DNA of 64,000 bases, from assembly GCA_017307505.1 (NCBI GenBank), contig JAFKEE010000016.1, positions 62,001-126,000 on the forward strand. Reading direction: 5' to 3'. Position 1 is the first letter of the stretch, and each line of letters starts with the position of its first letter. Below the pieces are notes generated by a model, which saw only the letters and a list, made by a program, of their open reading frames with translations, was not told the DNA's origin and ran no database searches. A program made the position numbers and the translations under genes. Positions 12,076 to 19,919 of this stretch are shown here, one piece after another. The DNA comes from Acidobacteriota bacterium. Its GTDB lineage: Bacteria; Acidobacteriota; Terriglobia; Bryobacterales; Bryobacteraceae.

Positions 12076-13773
12076 CTAGTTATTCGTGCTCTGCGTACTC
12101 ATCGCATCCAGCATCTGGCTGATGTAGTTGTACTGCTGTTCCAGTGAGGCCACCAAGGCATCGGCCGCAGCCATTCGCTGTTCCAGATCAGCCTGCATGC
12201 TGTCGATGTAGCTCTGTTTGTCCGCAATCTGCCTGTCAAGGGCGGCTGCCTGCCCATCCAACGCCTTCTTCGCAGTCGCCAGCGTACCCGTAACCGCGTC
12301 CTCCACTTCGTCCAGCGCCGAGACCGCCTCGTACAGAAATCCTCTGGTTGTCGAGGCGCCCAGGAAGTTTGTGACTCCGGCGGAATCCGCAAAATTGGCC
12401 GCGTAGAAGGACATCTCGTTGAAGTCCATGTGACCGGTCTGGTCCAGACTCACGCCGAGCGCGGCGAGCGAGTTCACCCCAGCGCTAGCCTCCACTTGGC
12501 TCGTCATCCTCTGCAGCGCCCTCGTGAGGTTGCGGATCACGGCTTGACCCGCCAGCGCCCCGCCAGCCGTTCCATGGTGCGTGTCCACCTCATCGACGGC
12601 CGCGTTGTAGGCGTTCACCAGGGAGGCTAGTGCGTTGGCAACCGCGGAACTCTCACGCGTGAGGGTGATACTGGTCGGCTGCCCCGTCGCGCTGACACCT
12701 AGCAGGTTCACACTCAGACCTGGCGCAATCGTCACAGAGCGGGAATCGCTCTCCGAAATCTTGCCGGATCCGTTCACCTTATACATCGCCACTTCGCCGC
12801 GGATCTGCTCGGACTGAAGTTGGATGGCTCCATCGGTCAGCGTCACCGGGAAATCGCCCAGTTTCGAAGCCTTCAGGGACAATCGGTAATCCGGCGCCGT
12901 GTTCGAACCTACATTCACCATCGTGGCCCGGACCCCATTCAGCGAATTCGCATTGATCGCGTCCACCAGGCCGCTTAAGGTGTTCCTGGCCGGCTTGACC
13001 GTGAAGGTGTTCGAGCCCACGGTGAGCTGAAATACAGGGACTGCCTGGTTGCTGAGGCTCTGCGAATCCGGATTAAGAACGACATTGGGACCGGGCACGG
13101 AACTCAAAGTGGAGGTCATCGCGCCGCTCTCGTCGCCGCGACTCTGCTCGGATAGCAGGTTGATTGAGCCATCGCTCAACTGGATCCCGAGATCGCCCTG
13201 CACCGTGCTCACGACGGACAACCGGAAGTCCGGTGCCGCCACCGTGCCTACGTTGACCGTGGATGCCTGTACATTGGCCCCGGATTGGGCATTGATTGCG
13301 TCAACGAGGCTCTGCAGTGTATTGGAAGACGGGCTGAGGTCAAATGTACTGCCACCCACCGTGAGGCGGAACGCGGGTGCTGCGGTTTTGCTCAGGCTCT
13401 GGCTGCCAGGGTTGCTCACACGGCGAGGCCCCGCATCTGAACTGAGCGTCGTGGTGTATGCCCCCTGGTTCAGCACCTCGATATCGTACGTTCCCTCAAT
13501 GGCGCCGCTGGAGACCGAAGCGCTGACCGTCCTGGAGTCGGTGAGTGTTGCGCGAATCGCTCCACTGCCCATGGCATCGTCCAGTCCTGAAAGTGCTGTC
13601 TGCAAGGCCTGGACTTTTGTGTCCAAACCTGCCAGTGCCGTGGACTCGTCCGTCAGATTCGTCTTCTGCGTCTTGAGCTGGTTGAGAGGCATCGACGCGA
13701 TGGCTACCGTGCGATCGATGATCGTCTGGAAGTCAATCGCGTAACGGCTGTTCCCATTGAAGATTGTGCTCAT
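12076..13773 (-). CDS. fliD: Flagellar filament cap protein FliD (hook-associated protein 2)
   Basis: 565 residues. FliD caps the growing filament and helps flagellin subunits fold in. The N-terminal FliD domain (about 1-100) has IDFQTIIDRTVAIASMPL and a heptad-rich stretch. The middle contains two tandem copies of a roughly 110-residue unit (about 105-216 and 218-327). Both open with TLSS...GSQSLS or DSQSLS and FxLTVGxxTF, and both carry flagellin-IN-like LVDAINA motifs. The C-terminal FliD domain (about 330-560) includes SVNLLGVSATGQPTSITL and ends in coiled coil (KKALDGQAAALDRQIADKQ, EQQYNYISQMLDAM). It lies just downstream of fliC with a hairpin at the junction. The assignment is firm. 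Confidence 0.95.
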   Translation of the reverse strand: MSTIFNGNSRYAIDFQTIIDRTVAIASMPLNQLKTQKTNLTDESTALAGLDTKVQALQTALSGLDDAMGSGAIRATLTDSRTVSASVSSGAIEGTYDIEVLNQGAYTTTLSSDAGPRRVSNPGSQSLSKTAAPAFRLTVGGSTFDLSPSSNTLQSLVDAINAQSGANVQASTVNVGTVAAPDFRLSVVSTVQGDLGIQLSDGSINLLSEQSRGDESGAMTSTLSSVPGPNVVLNPDSQSLSNQAVPVFQLTVGSNTFTVKPARNTLSGLVDAINANSLNGVRATMVNVGSNTAPDYRLSLKASKLGDFPVTLTDGAIQLQSEQIRGEVAMYKVNGSGKISESDSRSVTIAPGLSVNLLGVSATGQPTSITLTRESSAVANALASLVNAYNAAVDEVDTHHGTAGGALAGQAVIRNLTRALQRMTSQVEASAGVNSLAALGVSLDQTGHMDFNEMSFYAANFADSAGVTNFLGASTTRGFLYEAVSALDEVEDAVTGTLATAKKALDGQAAALDRQIADKQSYIDSMQADLEQRMAAADALVASLEQQYNYISQMLDAMSTQSTNN

Positions 13774-13840: not shown

Positions 13841-16800
13841 TTAACCGCGGAGCAGGGACAGAATGAGCTGCGGCGCCGAGTTGGCTTGCGCCATGGCGGC
13901 CACCGCGGCCTGTTGCAGCACCTGCGCCTTGGTCAGGTTGGCGGCTTCCGCGGCCACGTCGGCATCCCGGATGCGGGACTCGGCGGCCGAGAAGCTGGAG
14001 ATCTGGGACTGTGCCAGAGAGAGAGCGTAACTCAACTGATTCTGGCCGCGGCCAACTGCGGCCTGGGCGGAACCGAGTTTCGAGATCGCCGACGAGATGG
14101 ACGAAACGGCTTTCAAGGCGTTCGACATCGTGTCAATCGCGATCGTGCTGGTGACGTCGCCGAGCGCTTCTGAGTTGACTGACCCAGCCGTCGTCGTGGC
14201 ATCCGAGGCACTTCCGTCAACGCCCGTGTTGTTCGCCGTGCTGCTGACGCTCACTTTGAAGTTGTCGCCACTGCTCAGGAAGTTGATCTTCTCCGCGCCA
14301 CCGACATTCTCCTTCACCGCCACGATGCCCTGCAGGGACGCAATGTTGGATTGCTGCAACTGCTTGTTGATCGAGTTGATCGCCTCGTCGATGCTGCGGG
14401 ACGAACGTGCCGTCGCATCGTTCCGCAAGGAGACAACCTGGGACTGGATCTTCCCGTCCGCGTCGGTGACGGAAACGGTGAGGGTCTGATCGTCACTCGC
14501 GTAGGTAGGTGCAGAGAAGGCCAAAGCCGTGCTCTGCTGTGCCCCGTTCGAATCGACAGCATTCCGCTTCGACGCCGACACGGTCAGGTTATTGGCGGCC
14601 GCGGCGTTGAACGTGGATCCGGAGACGCCAAAGCCCAGGTCGGCATCCAATGCCACAGCACCGCCATTCACGCGGAAGAACGTCCCGTCGGAATCCAGCT
14701 TCAGAGCCGTTCCGGAGCCGTCCGCCGTCAGGCCCGCCTTCTGGAGAGTGGAATCTGCGGCGATCTGCTGATTGATGGCGTCCGCAACACTGCTCAAACT
14801 ACGATTGGCCGCTGACGTCACTGTCGAGAACGTGAAGAGCCCGCCAGAGATGGCATTGCCGGCGAAAGTCAGCGTGTGGGATCCGCCCTTGTTCGCGTTC
14901 TCAATCGCGATGCGGCCATCCTGGGTCACTGAAACCGTCGCACTGGCGCCACCGGTCAGGCCTGCGGCATTGATCTGGGTTTGGATCTGGCCGGCAATGC
15001 TCAGCGCACTGCCACCCGCGGCCGCTGTGCCGTACCCAATCGAACCCGCCGTGAAGCCAAGGTTGGCGACACCCGTCTTTCCGGACGCCGTATTGATCGC
15101 AACGCTATGCCCGACACCGGTGTCATAGCCTGTGATCACGAGATTGCCTGTGCCGTCCACGGAGGCAACCGCCTTGTCTGCGCCAAACTGAGCATCGATG
15201 GCAGTTTGGACAACTCCGGCGATCGTACCGCTGTCATAGGTGCCATCCGCCACACTGACTGTGTGGGTGACCCCATCCACCGTCAGGTCAAAGGCTTCGT
15301 TGTTGCTGGCCGCTGCCACTGTCACGGTCGCAGCACCCGCGAACTTGCCGCCGCTGGCCGTGACAGCGCCACCCGCCGGGGCTGAGTCGGCGAGCGTCAC
15401 GTTGACGGTCTGTCCGTCGATCACCACGTCCAGGGAATGGTTGGCACTCGTAATTGTGCTGTTGGCAGGCAGAACGGCAGTCTGCGACTTGGCTGCGGTT
15501 GCATCGCCATCAGTGAGGTCCACCGTGATCTGACGAGCCGCTCCACCAGCGAGAGAAATCTCCAGCGTCGAAGTGCCGCTGGTCGTCGAAGCCGCGTAGT
15601 TGCTGCCCGTGATGGTGTTGTAGTCCACCGCACCCGCGGCGCCGCTGTTGAAAGCGCCCAACCCGAGCAAGTTTCCGGTATCGCCGGAGGCCTGGACACT
15701 GAACTTGTCTCCATGGCTGCTGGTGAAAGTCAGCGGTGTGCCGAGGGCCCCGCCGCTGACGGTGATGCCGGCATCCACCAGCGCCTGGTTCGCACCAACC
15801 TGGGACGTGAGCGAGGTGACCGCGGCGGACATCGCAAGCCCGCCCGCCACGGTGACATCGACAGGGCTGCTGAGCCCGGCTCCGGTGATGCGCACCGTCA
15901 CGTTGCCTGCACCGAGAGTTCCGGCCTGCGTATTGGCGCCTTGGACCGACGTGGTAAGCGAAGCTCCGCGCGTGGCGGGATCTCCACCGGCCGTACTGAA
16001 ATTGCCCATCAACGCATTGGCTTTCACATCACCGGCTTGCACCTGGATGGGCGCATAGGAGGAGTTAAACGCCAACTGCTGGCCGCCATTGGCATTCGTG
16101 AAGGCCGAAGCCGAGATTCCGGCGCCCTTGAACGCATTCGCCGCCGGCGTCACGTTGTTCTCCGCCTGCCCGATGGCATCGTTAATCGCCGTCACCAGGC
16201 TGTCGAGATCGCTGACGCCGGTGGTATTGACTGAAAGTTTGATCTTGTTGGCGTCCGAGAAGCCGGCGCCGGAGATGTAGAAAGTGGTATACCCCGCCGC
16301 GCTCGTATTCCCGGTGTCACTCAGGATCTCGGCCACGGTGTGAGTCGCAGACGTGGAGCCGATGTCGGTGGTGTCGTCGCCCGCCAGCACCTGCATGCCC
16401 TTCAGGTTTAGGCTCTTTGTATCGACCGCTGCGCCGCCCAGGTCAAGCTTCACCATGCCGTTCGTCGTGTCCACCGCACCGAGGCCTGAGGTGCGGCCGC
16501 CGCCCACGAACACCGACAGCGTCTTGGCGTAAAGACCGTCCTTGTCGAGGCCAACCGCCTGCGCCTGACGATCGATTTCCTTCAGCAGCGTCTGGAACTC
16601 ATCGTTCAGCACCTTGCGGTCGCCGGTAAACGTCTGCGACGCCGACTGCGAGGCCAGCGTCTTCAGCCGGTCGATCATCTTCGAGATATTATTCATGCCG
16701 CCGTCAATGATCTGCAGCGTGCTGATGCCGTCATTGGCGTTGCGGACACCCTGGGAAAGCTCAGCCACGTCGCTGCGGAACTTGTTGGCCACGGCCAGGC

Positions 16801-16936
16801 CGGCTGCGTCGTCACCGGACTGGTTGATGCGGTAGCCGGAGGTGAGACGCTGGATGGTCTTGCTCTGGAAGTCGCCATTCACGCGCATATTCTCCTGCGC
16901 GATGAGCGAATTCACGTTGGTCTGGATGGAAAACAT
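13841..16936 (-). CDS. fliC: Flagellin with greatly enlarged central domain
   Basis: 1031 residues, about twice the length of common flagellins (roughly 270-500). The D0/D1 N-terminal region (1-140) is canonical: MFSIQTNVNSLIAQENMR, IQRLTSGYRINQSGDDAAG, FRSDVAELSQGVRNANDGIS. The C-terminal D1/D0 region (about 935-1031) is also canonical, with GRGQNQLSYALSLAQSQI, RIRDADVAAEAANLTKAQVL and the terminal QLILSLLRG. Between them lie about 790 residues of alanine, glycine, threonine and serine-rich beta sequence with several flagellin-IN-like units. This region would be exposed on the filament surface. It is encoded between csrA and fliD, with its own leader and a sigma-28-like promoter. No frameshift is seen, so the long form appears genuine. 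Confidence 0.95.
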   Translation of the reverse strand: MFSIQTNVNSLIAQENMRVNGDFQSKTIQRLTSGYRINQSGDDAAGLAVANKFRSDVAELSQGVRNANDGISTLQIIDGGMNNISKMIDRLKTLASQSASQTFTGDRKVLNDEFQTLLKEIDRQAQAVGLDKDGLYAKTLSVFVGGGRTSGLGAVDTTNGMVKLDLGGAAVDTKSLNLKGMQVLAGDDTTDIGSTSATHTVAEILSDTGNTSAAGYTTFYISGAGFSDANKIKLSVNTTGVSDLDSLVTAINDAIGQAENNVTPAANAFKGAGISASAFTNANGGQQLAFNSSYAPIQVQAGDVKANALMGNFSTAGGDPATRGASLTTSVQGANTQAGTLGAGNVTVRITGAGLSSPVDVTVAGGLAMSAAVTSLTSQVGANQALVDAGITVSGGALGTPLTFTSSHGDKFSVQASGDTGNLLGLGAFNSGAAGAVDYNTITGSNYAASTTSGTSTLEISLAGGAARQITVDLTDGDATAAKSQTAVLPANSTITSANHSLDVVIDGQTVNVTLADSAPAGGAVTASGGKFAGAATVTVAAASNNEAFDLTVDGVTHTVSVADGTYDSGTIAGVVQTAIDAQFGADKAVASVDGTGNLVITGYDTGVGHSVAINTASGKTGVANLGFTAGSIGYGTAAAGGSALSIAGQIQTQINAAGLTGGASATVSVTQDGRIAIENANKGGSHTLTFAGNAISGGLFTFSTVTSAANRSLSSVADAINQQIAADSTLQKAGLTADGSGTALKLDSDGTFFRVNGGAVALDADLGFGVSGSTFNAAAANNLTVSASKRNAVDSNGAQQSTALAFSAPTYASDDQTLTVSVTDADGKIQSQVVSLRNDATARSSRSIDEAINSINKQLQQSNIASLQGIVAVKENVGGAEKINFLSSGDNFKVSVSSTANNTGVDGSASDATTTAGSVNSEALGDVTSTIAIDTMSNALKAVSSISSAISKLGSAQAAVGRGQNQLSYALSLAQSQISSFSAAESRIRDADVAAEAANLTKAQVLQQAAVAAMAQANSAPQLILSLLRG

Positions 16937-16948
16937 ACGATTGGCAAA

Positions 16949-16984
16949 TCCTTTATGCGTGCGATGCCGGAGATTCCTTCCGGC
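16949..16984 (-). promoter_or_regulatory. Candidate CsrA-binding leader of the flagellin mRNA
   Basis: In the minus-strand RNA, GCCGGA (16984-16979) pairs with TCCGGC (16971-16966), presenting a 7-base loop AGGAATC. Further on, the ribosome site AAGGA (16953-16949) lies 12 bases before the ATG. A GGA in a hairpin loop plus a second AGGA in the ribosome site is the layout of the CsrA-repressed hag leader of Bacillus subtilis. A further stem CCGAAC/GTTCGG lies upstream (17006-16987 region). Confidence 0.55.
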
Positions 16985-17019
16985 GATCCCGAACCGAAAT
17001 CAGTTCGGAGTCACTGCCC

Positions 17020-17046
17020 ATATCGGCCGGCTCTGCGGAAGATGAG
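17020..17046 (-). promoter_or_regulatory. Sigma-28 (FliA)-like promoter for flagellin
   Basis: On the minus strand, GCCGATAT (17027-17020) matches seven of eight bases of the sigma-28 -10 element GCCGATAA. Fifteen bases upstream is CTCATCTT as a weaker -35 (consensus TAAAGTTT). The predicted start would give a leader of about 75 bases containing the hairpins described for fliC. Confidence 0.6.
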
Positions 17047-17089
17047 GAAAAATGAGGTGGCGGGAAAACCGGACCAGCGCAGTCACCTT

Positions 17090-17401
17090 CTAGCCGCCAT
17101 CCCGTGGCTGTGGACAGGCCACTGTAACTTCAGAGGTGATCCCCCTCGAGCCACACGCCAGGCCGGTTCCCATCTCCGCCCGAAGCCTCCGCGCCAGTTG
17201 AGCCGGTGGCTCCGCGCCAACCCCCTGGGCGGCTGAACGGTTCTGCTCACTCACCTGCCGGATCTCGCCACGCACGATCGCCAACCGTTTGGGCACCACC
17301 AGGCCAAGCTTCACGTGGCCTCGTGTGCACTCCAGGATTTGGATCTCAATCTCGTCCCCAATCAGGATGGCGTCAGCCTCGCGGCGCAGCATCACGAGCA
17401 A
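17090..17401 (-). CDS. csrA: Carbon storage/translation regulator CsrA, C-terminally extended
   Basis: 103 residues from a TTG start at 17401, preceded by GGAG with a 7-base spacer; this start gives MLVMLRREADAILIGDEIEI, the exact CsrA frame. The RNA-binding Arg44 is in place (IVRGEI), as are the beta-1 LRR and the GHVKLGLVVPK segment. CsrA binds GGA sites in mRNA leaders and blocks translation; FliW binds CsrA and relieves it. The protein is longer than the usual 60-75 residues: after about residue 50 comes a 50-residue tail ending in SEVTVACPQPRDGG. The start overlaps the fliW stop by 10 bases, suggesting translational coupling. The next gene downstream is flagellin, its presumed target. 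Confidence 0.9.
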   Translation of the reverse strand: MLVMLRREADAILIGDEIEIQILECTRGHVKLGLVVPKRLAIVRGEIRQVSEQNRSAAQGVGAEPPAQLARRLRAEMGTGLACGSRGITSEVTVACPQPRDGG

Positions 17402-17844
17402 GGCGAATCTCCTATGGGGTGCCGTAACGCATAGGCCGGATTGTCCTGAATGATCTGCATCGCCCGGCCGGCCGGAACGTGGATCACCAACGGCGCCATC
17501 AGATTCGCGGTGGGCGGACCATCCTCGCTCACCGAGACAATTGCGAGACACGCAATGTCGGGGCCGATGCCCGCGGCACAGTCCGCGGGTAGCCTCAGCG
17601 CCAATCGCTCGTGCGGCTGCAGGTCGATCGTATAGTCCGCACACAGCGGCAGCACCGGGACGGTGACGAAGCAAAGCTTCGGTGTGGCCACGCTCTGCAG
17701 GAAGATCAGCGGCGCACAGTCTTCCCGGGAAATCGACACGAACTCGGTCTCATGTTCAAATCCGGGAAGCCCGCGTTCAAAATGGAGCACGCAGGCTTCC
17801 GGAAAACTCACTTCGCCAAAATACACTGTCTGAATTGCTTGCAT
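17392..17844 (-). CDS. fliW: Flagellar assembly factor FliW
   Basis: 150 residues. FliW binds either newly made flagellin or CsrA: when flagellin is exported, free FliW sequesters CsrA and flagellin translation resumes. The conserved signature is clear: VYFGEVSFPEACVLHFERGL, PGFEHETEFVSI, PLIFLQSV and the central CLAIVSV. It ends in an ALRHPIGD segment. The ATG at 17844 has GGTTCCAATGC immediately around it without a strong ribosome site. It overlaps csrA by 10 bases and follows fliS by 64 bases. The fliW-csrA-fliC order matches the partner-switch arrangement known from Firmicutes, Spirochaetes and Campylobacter-type bacteria. Confidence 0.93.
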   Translation of the reverse strand: MQAIQTVYFGEVSFPEACVLHFERGLPGFEHETEFVSISREDCAPLIFLQSVATPKLCFVTVPVLPLCADYTIDLQPHERLALRLPADCAAGIGPDIACLAIVSVSEDGPPTANLMAPLVIHVPAGRAMQIIQDNPAYALRHPIGDSPCS

Positions 17845-17908
17845 TGGAACCGATCTGTCCCTATTCGGAACACCTGTTCAAATACTTGCAATCCGTCCGC
17901 CAAGCCGC

Positions 17909-18442
17909 CTAATAGCTCACGGAAAGATGATACTCTCGCGGCTCAGGAAGTGGTGGATAGGCCGCCGGGTAGCCGGAGGAGTAGTTGATCCATCCGTATT
18001 GGCCAGCGGGCTCGGGCGCGGGCTCCGGATCAAGCTCCGCCGTTGGCGTTGCACAAGGCTCCAACGGCACCGGCACTGTCTCCTTGCAGGCCAGCCACGC
18101 CTCCTGAATCACCCGTAGCAGACGCACCACCTCGTCCAGCGGGCCATCGGTTTGGTCCAGATTCGCCGTCAACAGACGGCCGCGCAGGTAACAATATGTC
18201 TCCGCCAGATTCCGGCTCACTGCGCCGCCCACCTCGTGATTCAGCGACACCTCAAGCTCTGTAATGATCTCGTACGCCTTGGAGATCGCTCTCGAGCGCC
18301 CGGCGATGTCACCTTGCCGCAGGCACTCACGCGCCAGTCCGGCCGAATCAATCGCGGCCTGATACATAATCTGGACCAGCTGAATGCCATCAGCATTCAG
18401 AATCCGGCTTTCAAAGTAGGAGTCCTGGACATCAATCGGCAA
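17909..18442 (-). CDS. fliS: Flagellar export chaperone FliS, extended
   Basis: 177 residues. FliS keeps flagellin unfolded in the cytoplasm and delivers it to the export gate. The FliS helical bundle spans about 1-115: DSYFESRILNADGIQLVQIM, YQAAIDSAGLARECLRQGDI, SRAISKAYEIITELEVSLNH, and a YCYLRGRLLTANLDQ helix. The normal length is about 120-140 residues. The last 60 residues are proline/glutamate/tyrosine-rich (PEPAPEPAGQYGWINY, PAAYPPLPEP) and look disordered. It lies between the ECF/anti-sigma pair and fliW on the same strand. The assignment rests on the bundle pattern and the context. Confidence 0.88.
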   Translation of the reverse strand: MPIDVQDSYFESRILNADGIQLVQIMYQAAIDSAGLARECLRQGDIAGRSRAISKAYEIITELEVSLNHEVGGAVSRNLAETYCYLRGRLLTANLDQTDGPLDEVVRLLRVIQEAWLACKETVPVPLEPCATPTAELDPEPAPEPAGQYGWINYSSGYPAAYPPLPEPREYHLSVSY

Positions 18443-18531: not shown

Positions 18532-19305
18532 TCAGCTCTCCAGCTTCCGCAGGACTGACTGGATACCCGGAGCCATGGCTAGCATCAGCTTCCGGTTCTC
18601 TGCGCCGCCCAGATCGGACACCACATACGCCAGATAGTCGCGCGTCTCGATGGCCGCCATTTGGAATCGAGCGGCGCGCGCCTCGTACAACGCTACCCCG
18701 TGTTCCTGCAGTTCCGGCAATATCTGGTCCCGAACGAAAGACTCCTCCACGTTCCGGCGTGTGATGATCACCGACAGAAGCTTGGACTCGGACTTCAGCT
18801 GAAAATGAACAAACTTGCGGCCTCGCCGCGTACACAGATGCGCCGAGTAGAGCTGGAAGGACTGCGGGGCCTGCTGTTGGACCACCGTCAGCACTTCGGC
18901 GAACTGCGGCGGCAGATCCTTTACGGCCTGTGCCAGCGGTGGAATCGTATCCGGCACCCGGCCATAGACGGAACAGTGCAAATGATCATCGAGCCCCGGA
19001 CGCATGGTGGTCGACACCTTCACCAGCATCGAGTTCATGAACGACTCGCGCTGCCCGGCCGTCAACCGCAGGTGGCCCTGCTGATACGCAACCCCCGCCG
19101 AAATGCAGAGAATCAGCGCCGCGGCGGCCGGCACCCACACGGCCGCCCGCCAGACGCCCTGCTCCTGGCGTTGCTGCTCCGCGTCCAGCCGCTGCCGGAT
19201 CTTTACCTGTAGCTCCGGCGGCACCTGCTGGCTGCGCACAGCCTGCCGCAACCGCGCGGCCAGTTGTTCATCCCTTGGTATCGAGTCCATCGGCTCGGAA
19301 CTCAT
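18532..19305 (-). CDS. Anti-sigma factor, membrane-anchored, without zinc motif
   Basis: 257 residues; its ATG overlaps the ECF sigma stop by 4 bases. The cytoplasmic part (1-50) is helical (DEQLAARLRQAVRSQQVPPE) but lacks the HxxxCxxC zinc motif seen in its paralogue at 59812-60681. One membrane segment lies near 52-72 (AAVWVPAAAALILCISAGVAY). The extracytoplasmic part (75-257) is shared with the paralogue: LTAGQRESFM, GLDDHLHCSVYGRVP, SAHLCTRRGRKFVHFQLKS, YLAYVVSDL. The Cys/His pairs in HCSVY and AHLC are conserved between the two. It should hold the neighbouring sigma factor inactive until a signal is sensed; the signal is unknown. It sits directly upstream of the flagellar genes. Confidence 0.8.
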   Translation of the reverse strand: MSSEPMDSIPRDEQLAARLRQAVRSQQVPPELQVKIRQRLDAEQQRQEQGVWRAAVWVPAAAALILCISAGVAYQQGHLRLTAGQRESFMNSMLVKVSTTMRPGLDDHLHCSVYGRVPDTIPPLAQAVKDLPPQFAEVLTVVQQQAPQSFQLYSAHLCTRRGRKFVHFQLKSESKLLSVIITRRNVEESFVRDQILPELQEHGVALYEARAARFQMAAIETRDYLAYVVSDLGGAENRKLMLAMAPGIQSVLRKLES

Positions 19306-19919
19306 AGTCCTTGCTCCTTCGCCAGCTTCTTCCCGATCCCGTATGATTCGGCGACAGACTGCAGCTGCGCCCGCAGCAGCTTGCGCCCCCGGCTGATCCG
19401 GGACATCACGGTGCCCAACGGCAGGGAGAGGATGGTGGCAGCGTCCTTATAGGCAAATTCTTCCACGTCGACAAGTAGAATGACGGCCCGGAATTCATCG
19501 GGGATCCGGTCCAGGGCAGCCAGGATCTCAGCATCCGTCAAGTGGTCAATCGTCGGCGGCGGCGCGACCAGGTTCGCCTCCAGGAACTCCTCCGACTCCT
19601 TCAACAGCGGGAAGCGGAACCACTTGCGCCGGTGGTGATTGATGCAATGGAACAGGATGCGAAACAGCCAGGCCCGGCAATTCGTGCCTGCTTCAAAGCG
19701 GTGGTACGACTTCCAGGCCTGCAGGTACACCTCCTGCACCACATCCTCCGCACGAGTGCCGTCGCCCAGTATCCGGGCAGCCGTCCGGAACAGGTCGTTC
19801 ACGTGCGGCATCGCCTCGGCCTCAAACTCGGCCCGGGTAGATTCGGCCTTTGCGGCTGGTTTCAATTGCTCCACGAATAGCTGGCGTCCCGACAGCCCAT
19901 GCTCCATGCCACGCTCCAT
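19302..19919 (-). CDS. RNA polymerase ECF sigma factor
   Basis: 205 residues. Sigma-70 region 2 covers about 35-100 (ARILGDGTRAEDVVQEVYLQ, AWKSYHRFEAGTNCRAWLFR, ILFHCINHHRRKWFRF) and region 4 about 130-195 (LDRIPDEFRAVILLVDVEEF, YKDAATILSLPLGTVMSRIS, RGRKLL). This is the group in which the partner is a membrane anti-sigma, here the overlapping gene. It is very similar along its whole length to the sigma factor at 60678-61367. It probably drives its own operon and perhaps the flagellar genes downstream; no matching promoter was identified. The N-terminal 33 residues are not conserved, and an internal start cannot be excluded. Confidence 0.9.
   Translation of the reverse strand: MERGMEHGLSGRQLFVEQLKPAAKAESTRAEFEAEAMPHVNDLFRTAARILGDGTRAEDVVQEVYLQAWKSYHRFEAGTNCRAWLFRILFHCINHHRRKWFRFPLLKESEEFLEANLVAPPPTIDHLTDAEILAALDRIPDEFRAVILLVDVEEFAYKDAATILSLPLGTVMSRISRGRKLLRAQLQSVAESYGIGKKLAKEQGL

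Follow-up and report, generated by a model that had tools for sequence, protein, structure and literature searches.

The window, by which we mean the whole 64,000-nt stretch of DNA from a soil acidobacterium that was analysed, carries a flagellar cluster on its minus strand in the order fliS, fliW, csrA, flagellin and fliD, with fliW, csrA and the flagellin gene consecutive:

17909..18442 (-), fliS, flagellin chaperone, upstream in the same cluster (PF02561, E 2e-27)
17392..17844 (-), fliW, CsrA antagonist, 150 aa (PF02623, E 3.3e-24)
17090..17401 (-), csrA, 103 aa, with a long C-terminal tail (PF02599, E 8.6e-13)
13841..16936 (-), flagellin gene, 1031 aa, the proposed regulated gene (PF00669, E 1.1e-27; PF00700, E 2.4e-18)
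12076..13773 (-), fliD, filament cap, downstream in the cluster (PF07195 and PF02465)

The initial annotation had placed fliW and csrA immediately 5' of the flagellin gene, and the Pfam matches to PF02623 and PF02599 confirm this. A profile search of the window genome returned the window fliW as the only FliW match, and the Pfam model for CsrA, run over the whole genome, likewise returned only the window csrA. On the basis of homology and of an AGGAGA upstream, we infer that csrA starts at a TTG overlapping the fliW stop; since the ends of the two genes overlap, they are probably translationally coupled. The gap from csrA to the flagellin ATG is 153 nt. Just upstream of fliS lie a 257-aa open reading frame without a Pfam match (18532-19305) and a gene for a small sigma factor having regions 2 and 4 (19302-19919). 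Three FliA/WhiG-type sigma genes in the window genome score above the curated cut-off. Elsewhere in this genome (locus L127, contig C46), and in genome G100 (L123), there are separate clusters of three and six short flagellin genes, respectively, and a FliA-type sigma gene (L151) shares the contig of the former.

The leader between csrA and the flagellin gene contains four elements:

17020..17027 (-), sigma-28-like -10 box GCCGATAT, from sequence
16988..17009 (-), upstream hairpin UCCGAACUG-AUUU-CGGUUCGGG, loop without GGA, -11.6 kcal/mol
16966..16984 (-), SL1, GCCGGA-AGGAAUC-UCCGGC, proposed upstream CsrA site, from sequence, folding and a register test
16949..16954 (-), AAAGGA Shine-Dalgarno, proposed second CsrA site, from sequence, 12 nt before the ATG (16936)

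All of the elements claimed for this leader are present, with some qualifications. The six-pair hairpin with AGGA in its loop is there as described (GCCGGA/UCCGGC, 16984-16966), as is the AAGGA ribosome site 12 bases from the ATG (AAAGGA, 16954-16949). The sigma-28-like promoter held in its -10 box but not in its -35 half, which is poor: judged by eye against the sigma-28 consensus, nothing resembling TAAA lies 15 nt upstream of the box. A sigma-70 scan gave no promoter-like site in the window leader. The CCGAAC/GTTCGG hairpin is present, but its conservation among relatives is loose, the counterpart in the nearest relative, L032, being different and weaker (-2.9 vs -11.6 kcal/mol in the window). 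The GGA of the SL1 loop occupies 16977-16975, its first G standing 26 nt from the first G of the Shine-Dalgarno GGA; the loop is 7 nt long as compared to the optimal 6, and the Shine-Dalgarno sequence sits inside a weak hairpin, UAAA-GGA-UUUG. Structure prediction, which the initial annotation had proposed as a check, was unhelpful for the leader as a whole, which folds no better than its dinucleotide shuffles (z -0.18; 84 of 200 shuffles equally good). From the window alone, then, structure is not beyond chance, and comparison had to decide.

A known riboswitch or other Rfam RNA in the leader was considered and dropped, there being no match at gathering score where we searched. Window positions 16700-18000 gave no match to Rfam (release 15) up to an E value of 5, 12 of the fetched loci gave none at gathering score except a tRNA, and the leader region of L066 gave two hits that fell well short of that score (E 4.4 and 5.6).

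By profile searches, 78 of the family's 101 genomes have FliW, and exactly those 78 have CsrA. The flagellin query matched in 83 genomes, namely 76 of the 78, five with strong matches and neither FliW nor CsrA, and two with weak matches (E 2e-5 and 9.5e-5). Besides the window, 80 further fliW places were taken, giving 81 loci, in every one of which csrA starts between -37 and +16 nt from the end of fliW on the same strand. Leaders could be drawn from 80 genomes, 117 in all, of which 112 come from 75 CsrA-bearing genomes and five from the five genomes without FliW and CsrA; L121, whose leader is too short, and the second FliW place of G095 were left out. All 47 leaders in which a flagellin gene comes next after csrA form the core test set, and pairing played no part in their choice. 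The titled loci are mostly Bryobacterales, Bryobacteraceae, Solibacteraceae, Terriglobia or Acidobacteria, with Firmicutes (e.g., Selenomonas) a minority of the 80, so an acidobacterial placement is valid at the level of the family. One metagenome-assembled record titled Bordetella parapertussis (L252) has a fliW of the window's family, and its title looks wrong.

In L032, which belongs to the same genus as the window (FliW 71% identical), SL1 is found at the same place. Across the csrA-adjacent leaders (alignment A1), 44 of 47 form at least four of five SL1 pairs in register (i+j = 143 or 144); taken singly, register 143 holds 17 rows, 144 holds 32 and 142 holds 12, as compared to 0-3 for each of nine others. 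The stem covaries through C-G, G-C and A-U exchanges while the loop is nearly fixed, and the search for the hairpin and its AGGA in related flagellin leaders, proposed at the outset, thus found both. RNAalifold returned no structure for the 47-leader alignment, which we think is due to loops of 5 and 6 nt shifting the stem by one column.

Between 16 and 66 nt before the start codon, a hairpin with GGA in its loop, the motif already established for CsrA, is present in 48 of 112 leaders, as compared to 94 of 2240 shuffles and 30 of 768 control reading frames (at least 250 aa, with automatic starts, some of them not genes). A looser hairpin with an ANGA loop, a pattern picked after the leaders had been seen, occurs in 67 of 112 leaders as compared to 30 of 2240 shuffles, 12 of 768 control frames and one of the five CsrA-less leaders; counted per genome among readable leaders, it is present in 61 of 75 CsrA-bearing genomes and in one of five CsrA-less ones. 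The Fisher tests used in this analysis ignore relatedness. With SL1 in the nearest relative and in register in nearly all csrA-adjacent leaders, and with this excess over shuffles and controls, the structure is beyond chance by comparison. The leaders of the short-flagellin clusters L127 and L123 have the SL1 hairpin in 0 of 9 cases.

The ribosome site tends to be enclosed as well: a second hairpin around its GGA can be formed in 24 of the 47 leaders, whereas exchanging 3' flanks among genomes yields 9.7 on average. In the wider set it can be formed in 39 of 107 leaders (vs 20.7), five of the 112 having been dropped for having no GGA 7-18 nt before the start. The spacing between the loop GGA and the Shine-Dalgarno GGA is 21-29 nt in 41 of the 47 leaders (within 1 nt) and 35-62 nt in the other six. 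Of the 47, 38 have a sigma-28-like -10 box 5' of the SL1 loop, which speaks against a transcription start downstream of that loop; within 160 nt of the start codon, such a box is found in 73 of 112 leaders, as compared to 33 of 768 control frames.

Hairpins in this position might also serve simply as a 5' structure that stabilizes the mRNA or positions the ribosome, with the GGA in the loop incidental. Flagellin mRNAs are abundant, stable hairpins are often found at 5' ends, and both the GGA-less upstream hairpin of the window and the strong GGA-less hairpins of some leaders in CsrA-bearing genomes would fit such a role. A purely structural role, however, sits badly with the loop, and not the stem sequence, being the most conserved part, and with the narrow spacing to the ribosome site. 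The five flagellin genomes without FliW and CsrA tend, on n=5, to keep the promoter box (4/5) but not the GGA-loop hairpin (0/5). We consider a role in stability or positioning alone to be quite unlikely.

Recognition by CsrA, to which these observations point, has close precedents. In the Campylobacter jejuni flaA leader, as described in PMC4894983, CsrA footprints cover two ANGGA hairpins 21 nt apart, the second over the ribosome site, a change of GGA to UGA in the first lowered binding, and FliW antagonizes CsrA. The leaders analysed here share the pair of GGA-loop hairpins with the second over the ribosome site, a spacing whose main range begins at that of flaA, compensatory stem changes, a sigma-28 promoter and the presence of FliW. 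They differ in that the predicted leader is longer and has an extra upstream hairpin, in that many of the relatives' loops lack the first G, and in that the ribosome-site hairpin can be formed in about half of the csrA-adjacent set; the sites are also predicted ones, known from sequence. Bacillus subtilis hag has two CsrA sites in its 5' UTR and FliW as antagonist (PMC7652899, PMC6070490), and its CsrA has a C-terminal extension with a FliW-contact Asn; hag belongs to another phylum, however, a GC-rich hairpin holds the upstream site here, and CsrA here has one residue fewer in its C-terminal helix region ahead of the Asn. The initial annotation had called the pair of sites exactly that of hag, and while the two-site leader stands, the closest known leader is that of Campylobacter flaA. 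The ANGGAN hexaloop is described as the high-affinity target of RsmE (PMC7652899), and in the csrA-adjacent leaders the 6-nt loops are ANGGAN in 15 of 15. Many loops of the 5-nt class resemble the CsrB repeat CAGGA(U/A/C)G, but unlike the CsrB and RsmE targets this class has G in only 14 of 29 cases at the first G of GGA, with A in 12 and U in 3; relatives with C exist.

Taken together, these features suggest the following scenario. The flagellin mRNA would start at the sigma-28-type promoter 5' of the hairpins and would present two CsrA sites, the GGA of the SL1 loop and, 26 nt downstream in the weak hairpin, the GGA of the ribosome site. Sites 10-63 nt apart are within reach of a single CsrA dimer (PMC7652899), and one dimer spanning both sites would block ribosome entry. 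FliW would then remove CsrA by binding its C-terminal part around Asn54, and unexported flagellin would tie up FliW, such that CsrA would repress until flagellin exits via the flagellum.

The protein partners were compared as well. At the place that presumably corresponds to Asn255 of B. subtilis Hag, the FliW-contact residue, the flagellins readable by pattern have Asn in 41 of 47 and Ser in 6 of 47, the window's among the latter. The window CsrA keeps both Arg44 and Asn54, and Asn54 is invariant in all 81 CsrA sequences, aligning across a one-residue gap with the FliW-contact N55 of C. jejuni and B. subtilis; FliW is reported to contact CsrA at V51 and N55 (PMC7829508). An alternative would be that FliW is a flagellin chaperone only and that CsrA acts on other mRNAs. 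Flagellin is indeed bound by FliW in known systems (PMC6070490), but a chaperone unconnected with CsrA would hardly be expected to occur in the same 78 of 101 genomes, adjacent to csrA in all 81 loci, with the FliW-contact Asn of CsrA invariant, and we regard this alternative as very improbable.

From the match to C. jejuni flaA, the bridging range, the affinity for ANGGAN and the invariant FliW-contact Asn, we infer that the flagellin mRNA is very probably repressed by CsrA via the loop and the ribosome site and relieved by FliW, as in Campylobacter flaA and Bacillus hag. Weighing against this reading are the shuffle-like fold of the window leader, its 7-nt loop and its weak Shine-Dalgarno hairpin, the 14 of 75 CsrA-bearing genomes that fail the ANGA test, the one of five CsrA-less genomes that passes it, the AGA, UGA or CGA loops in 15 of 59 assigned rows that keep Arg44 (given the lower binding of the UGA mutant in C. 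jejuni flaA), and the Ser of the window flagellin at the presumed Asn255 place. For the family, a CsrA-bound leader appears supported about as strongly as sequence can support it. The proposed extension of the FliW-CsrA-flagellin switch to an acidobacterium thus holds for the leader sites and the gene order, with the regulation as the conditional part, but the idea itself is older, since co-occurrence of the genes had already led to a proposal that FliW controls CsrA in Acidobacteria (PMC4682653). A search by title of the open-access literature found no earlier paper on such an acidobacterial flagellin leader. For the Acidobacteriota, where gene presence had been the basis for suggesting the switch, there is now a specific leader RNA backed by covariation, whose sites are named, if predicted.

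Some relatives carry SL1 within a larger fold. In 11 leaders from 10 genomes (L052, L053, L066, L104, L114, L134, L140, L188, L204 and L239), an extra outer helix and a second arm with a nearly invariant internal loop, YAUC/GAGAA, join SL1 as the other arm in a predicted three-way junction. Double-sided changes affect 12 of 22 pairs in the 11-row alignment (shuffles average 5.4), and 91.5% of its cells pair, whereas sliding leaves no more than 50.6% paired. The number of additional pair types discriminates less well, 46 of 500 shuffles reaching it, and in the outer helix the two L052 rows are displaced by one column. Folded singly, four junction leaders gave z values of -3.4, -2.4, -1.8 and -0.2. 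A model of the junction found 13 places in 11 of the 101 genomes, all at a flagellin start, though 10 of the 13 served to build it, the remaining three are weak matches and the first few bases of the coding sequence form part of the model; the window scores weakly against it (17.9 bits). This putative junction is undescribed, and the Rfam searches that covered it gave no match at gathering score. L134 and L140 have lost the NGA motif from the SL1 loop but keep the remainder of the junction.

The loop itself varies among relatives in a way that bears on how CsrA would read it. Hand assignment gave a loop state for 72 of the 81 rows, the nine rows without an assigned loop being left out, and GGA is present in the window and in 44 of these 72 but absent from 28. 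On the best tree, built from FliW and CsrA with residues 43-45 left out, the loop changes between GGA and non-GGA 15 times, with eight independent pairs on well-supported branches. Arg44 of CsrA is replaced in 15 of 81 sequences (Ala in 10, Met in 3, Thr in 2), and 11 of the 15 form one clade (support 100/100), whose record titles (e.g., Candidatus Solibacter sp., Bryobacterales bacterium) lie within the window's family. In ten of the 15 genomes, the R44-less protein is the sole CsrA detected by Pfam. According to PMC7652899 and PMC6692469, replacing Arg44 by Ala makes E. coli CsrA defective in RNA binding, and in C. jejuni the same replacement ranks with the mutants that lose regulation most strongly; laboratory mutants thus suggest that the changes in the loop and the CsrA of some relatives should be disabling. 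The phylum sample, with CsrA in 73 of 396 genomes (two of them family members), keeps Arg44 in 30 of the 30 best-scoring loci.

These variants are also where a further alternative finds its ground, namely that CsrA acts on the ribosome site only and that SL1, mainly in relatives with an AAGA loop, is read by another RNA-binding factor. A GGA at the ribosome site is expected for translation anyway, and the loops without GGA and the clade without Arg44 would be accommodated. Our search, which was not systematic, found no other factor, however, and the GGA loop in the window and most assigned rows, at a spacing that suits one CsrA dimer, argues for CsrA at both sites; a second factor therefore seems unlikely to us.

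The natural loss of the GGA core and of Arg44 in relatives is what deserves most attention here. By raw count, R44-less rows with an assigned loop are non-GGA in 13 of 13 cases, against 15 of 59 (AGA, UGA or CGA) among rows that keep R44, and L048, L056, L057, L060, L062, L065, L067, L069, L078 and L086, with others, combine a CsrA with Ala or Met at 44, beside FliW, with an AAGA loop in SL1. When only rows with both states are considered, however, the tree has just two changes at residue 44, as compared to 15 for the loop, and only one or two independent pairs differ at that residue; co-evolution of Arg44 loss with GGA loss was accordingly dropped as an established result and is kept as a hypothesis. 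Twelve more R44-less CsrA proteins occur in further loci, seven of them with a recognizable SL1, which has an AAGA loop in six and GGA in one (L248); this combination of Ala44 with a GGA loop speaks against a strict code. Among the others, L209, L228 and L236 have no recognizable SL1, and a flagellin gene is missing from the L198 and L208 loci.

One possibility, somewhat less likely than not, is that the R44-less clade, whose SL1 is conserved and has an AAGA loop in nearly all cases seen, has naturally rewired the code by which CsrA recognizes RNA, starting from a first G whose requirement was relaxed repeatedly across the family, and that the three-way-junction SL1 of some lineages is perhaps a further sensing element. 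The family is a natural experiment, in which a GGA core deemed essential in laboratory work has been replaced many times and one clade's CsrA lacks an arginine thought indispensable, and it makes the reading of RNA by CsrA testable with matched natural protein-RNA pairs. Finally, in G087 (L056) and G020 (L119), a second, short CsrA reading frame lies directly 5' of a flagellin gene, and that of G087 has, by pattern, a Pro at the place of Arg44.
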